Shown here one piece after another: positions 2,402-24,904 of a stretch of DNA of 64,000 nt (positions within the stretch are counted from its first letter, which is position 1; each line of letters starts with the position of its first letter). The stretch lies in the NCBI GenBank assembly GCA_024640845.1, contig JAHEEE010000011.1, positions 1 to 64,000 of the forward strand, written 5' to 3'. A model generated the notes under the pieces. The model had not been told where the DNA came from. It saw only the letters and a program-made list of their open reading frames with translations, and did no database searches. The stretch is from Myxococcales bacterium (GTDB lineage Bacteria > Myxococcota_A > Polyangia > Polyangiales > Houyiibacteriaceae). Both the position numbers and the translations under genes were made by a program.

Positions 2402-4243
2402 ATGGCGGAGGGGATTGCGTCTAGTAGACCGGAGGCTTCGGGGTTGCACCCGGGGGTCGTGGTCGGCGGGAGGTTCGAGGTCGTCGACCGCGTCGACGAG
2501 GACACGCAGGCCATCATCTGGTCGGCGAAGGACCAGCAGACCAAACGCGCCCTTCTGGTCCGGGTGATTCGGCCGGACCTGGTTTCGTCCGACTCCACAC
2601 CCGAGCTCCGCGAAGCCTGCCGGACTGCGGCGACGCTTTCCCATCGCAACATCGCGCGCGTCTTCGGCGTCGGTAAGACGCCGCGCGGCGCGCACTTCAT
2701 CGCAGGCGAATGGATCGACGGCACCCGCCTCTCCGATTTCATTCAGGAGCGCAAACGCGACGGAAATCCAATATCGCTTCGCGGCATCTACAACGTCATC
2801 GCCCACCTATGCAGCGCGCTCAGCTACGCGCACGAGAAGGGACCGCATGGAACAGTGCGCCCGAGCGTGGTGTGGGTGACCCGAGGCGGGCGGGTCAAGC
2901 TGCACGACTTCGGTGTCGGTCAGGTCTTACTAGGCTCTGCAGGCCCCGACGCCTTCAAGAGTGCGGACCATGCATGCCTTGCCCCCGAAGTGAAGCGTGG
3001 GGAGCCCCCAACGCAACGAAGCGACGTCTTCGGCATCGGCGCAATCCTATATGAGCTCTTGACGACACGCGCTCCCGGCGCCGACTTCGTGCCACCGTCT
3101 CACGTACGCGACGATATCCCGGCCGAGATCGACGGGATTCTTTTCGAATGCCTGGCGCCGGACCCGAAGGACCGATTCGAGTCACCCGAGGCGGTCCGAA
3201 ACGCTTTGTTGCCGTTTGTGACCCAAGCGAACTCCTTGCCTCCTCCTGCGGATGCTGGCGTCAGCGTGGATATCGACCTCGGCTCCGTGCTGCCGCCTGC
3301 CGACCTCGACATTCCCGGTGTCGACATCGCGGGGCTTCCTCCGTTGGCGCCCCCGCCTGCGCCAAAACGCCGACGAATCGCGAGTCTCATCGAAGAGCTC
3401 TCCACTGACCCCAAGCAGCGTTGGATGGTCGCGCGCGACAAGATGGACCACGGACCGTTCAATGCGCGGGAGCTCATCGAACGGCTCAACGTCGGCGGGT
3501 TCGCGGGCGATGACATCACGATGAACGCCGACACGGGGGAGCGAAAAAAGCTCCGCGAGTGGCCGGAGTTTCGCGAGTTCGTCCTTCAGCGGGAGCATCA
3601 GGACACGGCAGCGGCCGAGCACGCTGCACGCGTGAACGCGCACCGCGCGGAGAAGCGCTCGTCCGCGATGAAGTGGCTGATCGCAGCTTCGCTCGTCGGC
3701 GTCGTGGCGCTCGCCGTGGGCGGATTTCTCCTTTCGCGATCGAGCGGCATGCGGGAGATCGCCGATATGGAGCTCGACGACTTGTTCAAGCTCGGAAAGA
3801 TCACGACCGGTGAAGCGGGTCTCCTGCCCGATCCGCCCCCTGCCAGAAAGCGCAAGCGTGGCTCGGCTGCGGCTCCCGCTCGACCCTCGAGCGGCGGATT
3901 CGCGAGCTATAACGAAGCGATGAGCCGCGCGATGGAGATCGGGGATGCCTCGCAAAGCGGCGGCGAAGGTCGACTGACCGGCAGCCAAGTCGCAAGCGTG
4001 ATGAACCGCAGCCTCAACCGCTTCTACAGCCAATGCGTGATGCCGGAGGTCAAGAGTGGAGGCAAGCCTGGCACGGTCAAGGTCGACCTCGCCATCGCCG
4101 GCAGCGGATCGGTCATGGGCGCGACGGTCCACGGCGGCAGCTCGTCGTTCCAGGGCTGCATGGGACAACAGATCAAGACCGTTCGCTTCCCAAGCTTTGG
4201 CGCCCCCCGCATGGGTGCGAGATATACCTTCACGGTCAACTGA
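2402..4243 (+). CDS. Membrane pseudokinase with GYF-like domain and AgmX/PglI-type C-terminus
   Basis: A 613-residue protein with a Ser/Thr kinase fold at about 20-275. The glycine loop is absent (GGRFEVVDRVDEDTQ). The beta-3 lysine is replaced by Arg54 (ALLVRVI). The HRDxKPxN loop reads HGTVRPSVV, so catalytic Asp, Lys and Asn are lost. DFG (169-171) and an APE motif (194-196) are kept, so it is almost certainly not a phosphotransferase. A Pro-rich linker leads to a GYF_2-like domain (about 340-395, containing DHGPFNARELIERL), then a TM helix (about 424-445). The last ~110 residues hold two cysteines (FYSQC, FQGCMG) and resemble the AgmX/PglI or TonB-like tail of myxobacterial envelope proteins. 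It probably reads a cytoplasmic signal and acts in the periplasm; this is inference. Confidence 0.82.
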   Translation: MAEGIASSRPEASGLHPGVVVGGRFEVVDRVDEDTQAIIWSAKDQQTKRALLVRVIRPDLVSSDSTPELREACRTAATLSHRNIARVFGVGKTPRGAHFIAGEWIDGTRLSDFIQERKRDGNPISLRGIYNVIAHLCSALSYAHEKGPHGTVRPSVVWVTRGGRVKLHDFGVGQVLLGSAGPDAFKSADHACLAPEVKRGEPPTQRSDVFGIGAILYELLTTRAPGADFVPPSHVRDDIPAEIDGILFECLAPDPKDRFESPEAVRNALLPFVTQANSLPPPADAGVSVDIDLGSVLPPADLDIPGVDIAGLPPLAPPPAPKRRRIASLIEELSTDPKQRWMVARDKMDHGPFNARELIERLNVGGFAGDDITMNADTGERKKLREWPEFREFVLQREHQDTAAAEHAARVNAHRAEKRSSAMKWLIAASLVGVVALAVGGFLLSRSSGMREIADMELDDLFKLGKITTGEAGLLPDPPPARKRKRGSAAAPARPSSGGFASYNEAMSRAMEIGDASQSGGEGRLTGSQVASVMNRSLNRFYSQCVMPEVKSGGKPGTVKVDLAIAGSGSVMGATVHGGSSSFQGCMGQQIKTVRFPSFGAPRMGARYTFTVN

Positions 4244-4784
4244 AGCCCCAGGGCTGCAGCACTCAATTCCCAGAACCGAGCGCTAGCGCACGACGCGCGG
4301 GCGTCGAGGTGCACACGGGTCTCGAAAAAACACGATACGGGGTTTCACGGGACGGGCGGCCTGCAGATGCGGCCTCGTAGGACAGGTTGGGTCAGGCCGC
4401 GCACGCCGCCCTCGGACGGCGCGCCAATCGCGGTGGCTGCTGTCTTGCGATTGGCACTTCGTACGCCCGCTCCACCCCCTGTCGCGTTTTTCCGAGCCCC
4501 TGATGAACGACTCTTTGCATCAAAAGGGCTGCGACGGCGTGTGTACGCACAATGCCCCGGTCCAAGACATGCGCGGCAGCGCGAGCCCGAAGGGCGAAGC
4601 CCGGCGCGAAGCGCCGCCAAGCGCGAGCAAAGCGAAGCGCGCGGAGGGAGGACTACGGGTGGGGGTAGGAGATAGTGTGGGGGCGGTGGGGCGGGACAAA
4701 CAGCCGCCGAAGGCGTCCGGGCGGGTGGATGGAACAAAACCTCCCGACGCCACTCGCACAGTTCTAAGCGCGTGGGCGCCCTGC
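4244..4784. repeat. Intergenic repeat element, copy A (MITE-like module plus hairpin block)
   Basis: This 541-bp gap between convergent genes has no credible ORF. At 4317-4344 and 4473-4500 lie imperfect inverted repeats (22 of 28 positions match; core CTCGAAAAAACACGA) bounding a ~184-bp module. A second nested inverted pair flanks the centre (CCAATCG / CGATTGG). After the module come ATGAACGACTCTTTGC, then a chain of GAA-loop hairpins (GGGCGAAGCCC, GGCGCGAAGCGCC) at about 4568-4640, a G-rich stretch (GGAGGGAGGACTACGGGTGG) and ACAAAACCTCCCGACGCCA near 4736. Nearly the whole string recurs inverted at 22272-22660, and its downstream half at 24713-24853. No transposase is present, so it would be non-autonomous if mobile. 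Confidence 0.75.
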
Positions 4785-5864
4785 TTAGCCCGCCTTTAGC
4801 GCTGCAGCCACCTTTGGGATTCTCGCAAAACTGTCCTTGTCGGCCGCCTTCTCGAGCGCGTCTTGCGGCGTGACCACGCCCTGCAACACCAAGCCCGAGA
4901 GGACCGCGTCGATGCTTTGCATGCCCTGACCCCCACCGCTCTGGATCAGGCTTTGCAGCATCGTGGTCTTGCCTTCGCGAATGGCGGAAGCAACCCCAGT
5001 CGTGCCAATCAGGATCTCTTGCGCGGCTACACGACCGCTGCCGTCGGCCTTGCGCAAGAGCTGCTGTGCGACGATCCCAGCCAGCGAGTCCGCGAGCATC
5101 CCGCGGATCTGCGGTTGTTGACTCGCGGGAAACGCGTTGACGAAGCGATCGATCGTCGCCGGCGCCGAGTTGGTGTGAACCGTGGCAAAGATGAGGATGC
5201 CGAAACTCGCTAGTTGGAGCGCCATCTTCATCGTTTCACGACCACGAAGCTCACCGACGAGGATGACGTCCGCGTTCTCTCGGCCCGCGCTTCGAATCGC
5301 ATCTGCGAAGCTCGGTGTGTGAACCCCCACCTCGCGGTGGCTAATCTGGCACTTGCGAGGACGGTGCACGAATTCGACCGGGTCCTCGATCGTCAGTATG
5401 TGCGCTTCACGGGTGCGATTGATGTGATCGAGCATCGCGGCAAGCGTAGTGCTCTTGCCGCTGCCCGTGGGACCCGTGACGAGCACCAGCCCGGCTGTGC
5501 GCTCCGCGAGCTCGATTACTGCGCGCGGCAGTCCCAACTGCTGTACGGTCAGGATGTCGCTCGGGATCGTGCGGAAGACGGCTCCAGGCCCGGTCGTCTT
5601 GTAGAGGTAGTTCGCGCGAAACCGCGCCTTGTCTTCGTAGCCGTACGCGAAATCGAGGTCGCGGTATGCGTGGAAGTATTCGTTCTGGTCCGGGTCGAGC
5701 AGCTCATCCATGAGGTGCTTGATCTTGATCTCGTCGAGCGGACCCTCGTCCACCGCGACGAGCTCGCCCTTCAGCCGAATCGTGGGCGGGTGTCCAACCG
5801 ACAGGTGGAGGTCCGAGCCGCCCTTGTCGAGCAGGATGTCGAAATAGTAGTCGATCGCCGGCAT
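4785..5864 (-). CDS. pilT: Type IV pilus retraction-type ATPase, PilT family
   Basis: A 359-residue hexameric secretion-type ATPase of normal PilT length. N-terminal PAS-like domain (GGSDLHLSVGHPPTIR, about 15-30), Walker A GPTGSGKST (about 130), Asp box LTIEDPVEF, Walker B VILVGELRGRET and an intact His box FATVHTNSAP. The AIREGKT segment matches the PilT C-terminal AIR-type motif associated with retraction. In myxobacteria PilT powers pilus retraction and S-motility. The start lies 3 nt after the stop of the other ATPase gene, so the two form an operon. Which pilus it serves cannot be told here, as no other pil genes are in view. Confidence 0.88.
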   Translation of the reverse strand: MPAIDYYFDILLDKGGSDLHLSVGHPPTIRLKGELVAVDEGPLDEIKIKHLMDELLDPDQNEYFHAYRDLDFAYGYEDKARFRANYLYKTTGPGAVFRTIPSDILTVQQLGLPRAVIELAERTAGLVLVTGPTGSGKSTTLAAMLDHINRTREAHILTIEDPVEFVHRPRKCQISHREVGVHTPSFADAIRSAGRENADVILVGELRGRETMKMALQLASFGILIFATVHTNSAPATIDRFVNAFPASQQPQIRGMLADSLAGIVAQQLLRKADGSGRVAAQEILIGTTGVASAIREGKTTMLQSLIQSGGGQGMQSIDAVLSGLVLQGVVTPQDALEKAADKDSFARIPKVAAALKAG

Positions 5865-21103: not shown

Positions 21104-22075
21104 ATGACACGAACGATGGGTGTTCTTCTCTTGGCGCTCGCCCTTGGCGCATGCGCGTCTTCCAAATCCTCCACGAAAGACGCGTCTTCAATCGGCAAGG
21201 GCATCAACCTCGAAACGATGCGGCCGCAGGAGGCAGCCCAGGTCGTCAGGGAGTTCCAGCAAGCGTACGGCATTCCTCCCATCCCACCGCCGAACACGCC
21301 CGTGACCTCGATGGCCCAGGTCCTCGAGATCATCCGAGGGGATCGGTTGCCGGAGTTCGAAGAAGCCCGTCGATTCGCCGCCGGACGTCAAGGACCCGAG
21401 GCCCTGACGGTACGCGCTTATCTGGAGCTCTCATACGCCGGCGCACTGATCACCGCGGCTTCGATTCTCGACAGGGAGCGGAAGCAAGACCTCACTGAGC
21501 TTCGTCAACTGCAACAGGCGCGCCCGTTCGAGGACCAGGCGGCCACAGAGAAGGACAAGGCCCACGCCGCCAAGCTCCAAACCGAGACGGAGGATCTTCG
21601 CAAGGTCGTACGAGCGCTCCATATCTTGTCGGAAGATCCGCTCCGCTCTGGTTCTGACCTCGCCGAGCAGGCGATTCGACTGGACCCGAAGGCGCAGCTC
21701 GCCTATCTCGCCAACGCGAACTACTTCCGTCTGAGAGCACAGTGGCTGGAGTACGACCGCATGATGCGCTACGCGGACGCCGGCCCCGAGGATCCCCCCG
21801 TTCGCACCTACCTCCGCGCGATGGAAGCTTTCGAGCGCTACGTGGACCCCGCGCGCTGCGAGAAGCTCCTCAAAGAGACGCTCGCCAAACGGCCAGATTT
21901 CGTGCGCGCACAGGCGAACTTGGTCCTCGTCGATGAGAACACAGTCGACAAGTACGAGGAGCTGCAGCGCCTCAAGGCCATCAGCCCCAACCACCTGGTC
22001 GTCAGGCTGGCCGGACCGATGATCGAAGAGGAATACAAGACCGCCCAGGAGCTCGGCGGGGTCTTTGCGCAGTGA
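21104..22075 (+). CDS. Lipoprotein with TPR-like helical repeats
   Basis: 323 residues. Signal MTRTMGVLLLALALGAC (lipobox LGAC) followed by a Ser/Lys linker. The mature part is all-helical; the C-terminal half (DLAEQAIRLDPKAQLAYLANAN, MEAFERYVDPARCEKLLKETLAKRPDFVRAQANL) reads like degenerate tetratricopeptide repeats, implying protein binding in the periplasm. No Shine-Dalgarno is obvious, and ATG 21116 is an alternative start. It lies 48 nt after the hupE-like gene and may belong to the same transcript. Function unknown. Confidence 0.7.
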   Translation: MTRTMGVLLLALALGACASSKSSTKDASSIGKGINLETMRPQEAAQVVREFQQAYGIPPIPPPNTPVTSMAQVLEIIRGDRLPEFEEARRFAAGRQGPEALTVRAYLELSYAGALITAASILDRERKQDLTELRQLQQARPFEDQAATEKDKAHAAKLQTETEDLRKVVRALHILSEDPLRSGSDLAEQAIRLDPKAQLAYLANANYFRLRAQWLEYDRMMRYADAGPEDPPVRTYLRAMEAFERYVDPARCEKLLKETLAKRPDFVRAQANLVLVDENTVDKYEELQRLKAISPNHLVVRLAGPMIEEEYKTAQELGGVFAQ

Positions 22076-22681
22076 GGCGGTGAGGTGAGCTGCGGGCCGG
22101 GTTTGGTTTAGTTAATGTCCACCCGCCCACCCCCACCACGTAATCCTCCCTCCGCGCGCTTCGCTTTGCTTGCGCTTGGCGGCGCATGCGCGCCGGGCTT
22201 CGCCCTTCGGGCTCGCGGGTTGCTTGCCGCAGAGTGCTCGGCGGGTTGGGGACCTGGTTTGGTTTAATTACATCCGACCCGCCCACCCCCACCGCGTAAT
22301 CCTCCCTCCGCGGCACTCGCTTCGCTCTGCCTTGGCGGCGCTTCGCGCCGGGCTTCGCCGTTCCGGCTCGCGCTACCGCGCTTGTGTTGTGAACTGGGTC
22401 TTCCGCGTGCACACACCGTCGCAGCCCTTCTTTCGCAAAGAGTCGTTCATAAGGGGCTCGGAAACACGCGATGGGGGTTGGAGCGGGCGTGCGAAGTGCC
22501 AATCGGCACGACAGCAACCACCTTCGATTGGCGCGCCGCCCGAGGCGAGGCTTGCGTGGCCCGACCCTCCCTGTTCTTCCGGCCACCTTTGCAAGCCGAG
22601 CCGTCCCGTGAAACCCCCATCGTGTTTTTCCGAGACCCGTGTGAACCTCGACGCCCGGGCGTCCTGCGTCTGCGTCTGCGT
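22076..22681. repeat. Intergenic repeat element, copy B, with an extra tandem hairpin block
   Basis: A ~606-bp gap between convergent genes without a credible ORF. Read on the minus strand, 22660-22272 repeats copy A almost end to end. Inverted repeats at 22453-22479 and 22612-22638 match at 24 of 27 positions (CTCGGAAA...GATGGGGGTT) and bound a 186-bp module. Downstream on the minus strand come ATGAACGACTCTTTGC and the GAA-loop hairpin block with GGAGGGAGGATTACG. A second hairpin block with its own G-rich end follows at 22116-22230, and each block ends next to TTTGGTTTA (about 22101 and 22254), so the block is duplicated in tandem. Short CGTCTG repeats occur at 22664-22685. Confidence 0.78.
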
Positions 22682-22984
22682 CTAGGGCGGTATCGGTCTT
22701 AGCTGTATCGACAACGTCGTCGTCCCGGCTGGCAGATCCAATTCCATATCGTGCGGAAAATGGTCATCGGCGGTGACTGTCATCAAGTGAACACCCGGTG
22801 CCAGGGCCTTCGGTTCCTGTGAGAGTACCGTCGCTCGGCCAAAGTAGTGGCCGTCGATGTAGACGGAAGCCTCCGCCGGGGTCGCGATGACCTTCAAGCG
22901 GGCGGGTTCGGGTGCGACGGTCCCCTGCTTGGCGCAGCCAAGCAGCGCGAGCGCGAGCAGCAGGGCGGCGGCCCTCACTCCCAT
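22682..22984 (-). CDS. Small PEGA-domain lipoprotein
   Basis: 100 residues. The start at 22984 gives a textbook lipoprotein signal (MGVRAAALLLALALLGC); the ORF-track start at 23221 is inside guaA in another frame. The mature part carries a PEGA domain: LKVIATPAEASVYIDGHYFG...LAPGVHLMTVTA, the conserved pattern of surface or periplasmic PEGA repeats. Its ATG overlaps the guaA stop by 10 nt, so it is translated from the guaA message. Its role next to GMP synthetase is unexplained. Confidence 0.8.
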   Translation of the reverse strand: MGVRAAALLLALALLGCAKQGTVAPEPARLKVIATPAEASVYIDGHYFGRATVLSQEPKALAPGVHLMTVTADDHFPHDMELDLPAGTTTLSIQLRPIPP

Positions 22985-24519: not shown

Positions 24520-24904
24520 GGCGGCGGTCTAACATGGCCAACTTGGGCGGTCGAGGAGCCCGGAACAAGCGACTACCGGACCGGAGAATCGGTCGCGACG
24601 CACGTGCTCGGGAGCGGGTCCCGCTCGGCCGTCTCTACACGGCAGTACACGACTCGCCTCCCGCCCACTCCCTGTGCCGCGCATCCCGACCGATTCTCCT
24701 GCTCACGCAGAAGACATGCGCGGCAGCGCGAGCCGGAACGGCGAAGCCCGGCGCGAACGCGCCGCCAAGCGCGAGCGAAGCAAGGGGCGCGGAGGGAGGA
24801 TTACGGGTGGGGGTGGGCGGGTGGATGCAACGAAAACCTCCCGACGCCAATCGAGAACCGCCGACGTGCGTCGCGACCGATTCTCCGCGTGTGCGCAATT
24901 CCGC
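24520..24904. repeat. Intergenic element, copy C, bounded by perfect 23-bp inverted repeats
   Basis: The 385-bp gap between guaB and guaA has no gene. Positions 24583-24605 (GGAGAATCGGTCGCGACG...) and 24864-24886 (reverse complement ending CGACCGATTCTCC) are a perfect 23-bp inverted pair enclosing ~258 bp. A partial third copy, CGACCGATTCTCC, sits at about 24687-24699. Inside lies the hairpin block of copies A and B (24713-24800: GCGGCAGCGCGAGCC, GAAGCCCGGCGCG), the G-rich GGAGGGAGGATTACGGGTGG and AAAACCTCCCGACGCCA, but not the 185-bp inverted-repeat module. It looks like a composite, non-coding, MITE-like element. Confidence 0.75.

Follow-up and report, generated by a model that had tools for sequence, protein, structure and literature searches.

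Module M, a stretch of ~186 bp present twice in the 64,000 nucleotides analysed here (the window), is a dispersed, structured, MITE-like element. The reading we favour, at a probability of about one half, is that M is a short, non-coding and non-autonomous DNA element with a conserved forked hairpin, which is moved in trans and survives where it does no harm. The genome that carries the window is a 4.1-Mb Polyangiales MAG assigned to the genus SG8-38, a name that is itself inferred, while the genus and family codes (g and f) used below are working labels.

A first-pass annotation of the window had reported nearly the same string at 4298-4680 and, inverted, at 22272-22660, and the two do match over their length, with blocks of 115 and 103 nt that are complementary at 84% and 83%, respectively. 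The repeat is therefore real, but what had been taken for a single shared element is a string of two different repeats, M (~4290-4560) and then a second module, R (~4563-4690). The imperfect ~27-bp outer inverted repeat and the nested CCAATCG/CGATTGG pair described for it are both present, and both turn out to be helices of a covarying fold. The features are as follows.

4290..4315, + strand: left border common to the own-genome copies, GACGCCCGGGCGTCGAGGTGCACA type, where homology between copies begins
4316..4501, + strand: module M copy A, a forked hairpin (outer stem P1, hairpins P2 and P3) of ~186 bp, from BLAST, alignment, fold and covariance model
4317..4343, + strand: 5' arm of P1, GGGTCTCGAAAAAACACGATACGGGG, from consensus fold, covariation and arm comparison
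4353..4413, + strand: hairpin P2, GGCGGCCTGC..GCACGCCGCC, from consensus fold and covariation
4419..4458, + strand: hairpin P3, the nested CCAATCG/CGATTGG pair, from consensus fold and covariation
4475..4500, + strand: 3' arm of P1, from consensus fold, covariation and arm comparison
4563..4690, + strand: module R, the second dispersed repeat, which contains several short hairpins (52 own-genome matches)
22126..22217, - strand: tandem second R at a spacing of 156, from the inverted match and the R search
22282..22389, - strand: module R behind copy B, from the R search
22452..22639, - strand: module M copy B (covariance model, 192 bits)
24581..24699, + strand: module N, a third dispersed palindrome, in the guaB-guaA gap, from the N search and gap comparison
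24711..24817, + strand: module R without M, beside N, from the R and N searches

M is present in ~40-50 copies in its own genome. BLAST gave 52 matches, which correspond to ~40 distinct copies, the last dozen being short or reverse-strand pieces of these, and the covariance-model search gave 56. In an alignment of 29 own copies the left border is sharp, at GACGCCCGGGCGTCGAGG, and two subfamilies are resolved. Many contigs of this genome start or stop inside copies of M or R, which would be expected of repeats that break assembly. Covariance model R1 detected M in 18 of 19 SG8-38 genomes including our own (17 of 18 without it, at 1-44 copies each), from a single copy in G014, G016 and G018 to the maximum in our own genome. 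A second model (R2), built on the M core with divergent members and searched in 184 genomes of the order Polyangiales, found it in 28 genomes of four families, namely the own family f1 (genera g1, g4, g5 and g7), f8, f9 and f10. A pattern scan of named genomes matched MAGs of Myxococcota, including Myxococcales bacterium SG8_38; the pattern was absent from viral contigs, arguing against viral carriage, and a horizontal copy in Mangrovicoccus (L149) was rejected, since the pattern match there was not recovered by the covariance model. Nor is M a conserved single-copy gene, as the lone copies in G016 and G018 adjoin different genes. The initial description of a dispersed, non-coding, multi-copy repeat bounded by inverted repeats is supported, and the case that would have spoken against it, two copies only and no empty sites in relatives, does not apply, as the genome holds ~40-50 copies and relatives have empty sites.

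Copy A is flanked by a kinase gene (2402-4243, +) and by a gene for a pilT-like ATPase (4785-5864, -), and copy B by genes at 21104-22075 (+) and 22682-22984 (-), so that both sit between convergent gene ends as originally noted. Such sites are enriched among the SG8-38 copies at large: with genes called by a simple codon-usage method, 39 of 71 copies have convergent neighbours, whereas the baseline, gaps that lack M, gives 33 of 267 (p=5e-13). Short repeats of the GACGCT type are common in the intergenic DNA near M (the right flank of L005 and others).

The history of the site of copy A could be followed through the downstream pilT-like gene, which was traced in 19 species. The orthologous kinase-pilT gap is empty in G010 and G003, where it measures 13 and 23 bp, respectively. 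It holds M and R in G004 and G005, the same pair in the other orientation in G000, and N with M in G017; G018 and G016 contain N, whole or as a remnant, and a short remnant resembling P1 is present in G006 and G011. Directly behind pilT, M is also found in G012 and G015, where the next gene is a different one. Given these differing occupants, the site has been filled more than once. Short P1-like remnants downstream of the pilT-like gene (L250, L245) suggest that M has been lost there by deletion, and loss of this kind seems to occur as well. At one locus, species differ in the orientation of M and in its partners, so these loci are shaped by deletion and recombination as well. We infer that M is mobile from its presence or absence at orthologous sites and from the differing loci it occupies among species. 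No target duplication was seen in three filled/empty pairs from f9 or at the pilT locus, where flanks are too diverged or gaps too short.

M mostly occurs in SG8-38 alongside the palindromic modules N or R. R is also found without M (e.g. 24711-24817) and in tandem, often at 156-bp spacing; the arms of its hairpins vary in step (CCCGAAGGG/CCGGAACGG), and a G-rich stretch lies at its end. N is an imperfect palindrome of ~120 bp that flanks M in other species, giving a 28-bp inverted repeat. The guaB-guaA gap holds N and R in our own genome and M and N in G017.

What is conserved in M is its fold. A consensus from 54 distinct sequences consists of the outer stem P1 and the hairpins P2 and P3, and is retained across four families although the sequence changes. 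Changes on both sides of a pair were seen in 20 of 45 pairs (201 cells), a level reached by none of 500 shuffles, though the relatedness of copies inside one species means that these cells do not count as independent events. On the named structure 97.6% of cells are paired, a value that falls to 44-50% when partners are shifted by one column, and the divergent M core is still 90.2% paired with 81 both-side cells. The unpaired stretches of the junction are conserved too.

Covariation in a three-way junction whose unpaired stretches are conserved would also be expected if M were an amplified small RNA gene or structured RNA element (in 3'-UTRs or as a terminator, for example) that works as RNA. 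Its position fits such a role, since M often begins 1-20 nt past a stop codon (in the other SG8-38 species, 17 of 41 copies start <=20 nt from the stop codon of their 5' neighbour), and at sites in those species where only one neighbour ends at M, it follows that gene in its own direction by 13 to 3. However, our own genome shows no such orientation bias (4 to 8), copy number ranges from 0 to about 50 between species, and M has no match at curated score in Rfam, HEARO included, so that it could not be placed among known RNA families. G.U pairs are also nearly absent. Among 2,418 stem cells there are 9 G.T and 25 A.C combinations, so A.C is no rarer than G.U, and the wobble share is 0.4%, against 8.7% in tRNAs from the same loci (20 G.U in 230 pairs of ten distinct tRNAs). 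This near-lack of wobble pairs suggests that the fold matters as DNA; as the tRNA sample is small and tRNAs are not palindromes, the comparison supports a DNA-level constraint rather than proving it. We regard a function as RNA as possible but doubtful.

A link to a transposase comes from two related families. All three ISAs1-type transposase genes (PF13808 + PF01609) of G024 have M ~220 nt upstream in the same orientation, as do two of the three in G063 at a similar distance, giving 5 of 6 copies overall; the third G063 copy has lost the shared upstream region, with a breakpoint inside the coding sequence. In this lineage M forms a structured leader that follows the left inverted repeat and precedes the gene (L229, L232, L234, L230, L233). 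In G024 the IS inverted repeat, CAGACCTGATYGG, lies outside M, and a transposase between inverted repeats, as in ISAs1-family IS, is found for this host IS only and not for the window copies. Elsewhere, unlike these IS, M lacks both the transposase and the IS ends. Other ISAs1-type copies (G047, G058, G042) have no M nearby, a related transposase was found in none of the 33 other genomes of the family, and PF13808 has no match in ten SG8-38 genomes. The matching transposase that the first-pass annotation proposed to look for was not found in the same genome, at least as an ISAs1-type gene. Since the transposase is absent from SG8-38 and CAGACCTGATYGG is absent around dispersed M copies, the connection is suggestive: M resides in this IS lineage, which need not be what moves it.

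These results bear directly on whether M is a classical MITE, that is, a product of internal deletion in an IS, with the ends of the parent IS and mobilised by the parent's transposase. M is short, non-coding and multi-copy with inverted-repeat ends, it occurs inside the ISAs1-type elements of G024 and G063, and in several SG8-38 species it is enclosed by the N-derived 28-bp inverted repeat. Against this, dispersed copies lack the ends of an autonomous element, SG8-38 lacks such a transposase, the P1 arms differ among the copies of one genome, unlike shared transposase-binding ends, and covarying internal helices exceed what a simple MITE needs. A classical MITE is therefore an unlikely identity for M.

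Correia and ERIC/IRU elements are bacterial MITEs; together with the RU type they resemble M in being short, non-coding, bounded by inverted repeats, intergenic and multi-copy, with empty sites in relatives. RU-type elements are likewise MITE-class repeats of bacteria (PMC2759123). M differs from all of these in that neither a shared-end transposase nor a target duplication was found for it, in its conserved three-way fold, and in outer arms that are copy-specific in other genomes. REP, BIME and REPIN sequences are comparable as intergenic palindromes at gene 3' ends that occur in tandems and in modular combinations (as do M, N and R), but M is much larger. The only RAYT (Y1_Tnp) of our own genome (L158, 1462-2112) lies between GGGGAC and GTCCCC repeats that are unrelated to M, and a RAYT-driven REP was rejected on this basis; stretches similar to these flanking repeats occur near M in L082 and L207. 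The earlier suggestion of a MITE or a large REP-like element is fair in its descriptive part, "MITE-like", while membership of the MITE class is unproven. A retron msr/msd was rejected, our own genome having no RVT_1 (reverse transcriptase) match. The CTX phage attP is a forked hairpin recombination site, and it and integron attC share with M a forked or imperfect hairpin whose structure is conserved rather than its sequence. However, in comparison with attC, a folded single-stranded recombination site (PMC6393395), M copies are dispersed, form no cassette array and do not keep their stem sequence constant.

In divergent genomes, the outer stem P1 mostly spans 25-37 bp and is often free of mismatches, as over 30/30 positions in four G021 copies and 34/34 in three G047 copies. 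The P1 arms of G047 look unrelated between copies, yet are complementary within each copy. G047 and G058 also contain inverted pairs of M ~220-300 bp apart (L218, L220, L074), and every M in them carries a near-perfect outer stem of its own. The pair is missing from orthologous gaps in G070 or G058, whose flanks are so diverged that neither ends nor target duplications can be defined. Insertion into older palindromes was discarded as a source of copy-specific arms, as three empty orthologous loci, with diverged flanks, show no such 30-bp palindromes. More tentatively, M could represent a new class of mobile DNA in which a forked hairpin is read as folded DNA, the arms are free to change but remain perfectly complementary, through selection or arm-to-arm copying, and the fork has been adopted by an ISAs1-type transposase lineage. 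That the palindromes reflect mutation only, with template switching copying one arm to the other in an otherwise decaying repeat under no selection for a fold, would account for arms perfect over 30-34 bp yet unrelated among G047 paralogs and for the near-absence of intermediate mispairs, but it leaves the conserved unpaired stretches and a core kept across four families unexplained, and we consider it very improbable.

Under our preferred reading of M as a non-autonomous element moved in trans, an enzyme would recognise the extruded or single-stranded fork and move M, whose copies would survive mainly where no gene is harmed, just behind stop codons. The M stem may also stop transcription there, making a putative terminator role at convergent gene ends possible. 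Full-text searching, which covers few subscription papers, found no description of this repeat, and the retention of its fold across four families despite sequence change suggests a mobile or structural DNA element not described before. Dispersed bacterial repeats do not usually show strong covariation with nearly no wobble pairs, in stems that change completely while every pair is kept. Should the fold be required as DNA, the M family would allow folded-DNA recognition in transposition to be tested in a natural system; if M instead works as RNA, it would be a hitherto undescribed 3'-end element, widespread in Myxococcota.
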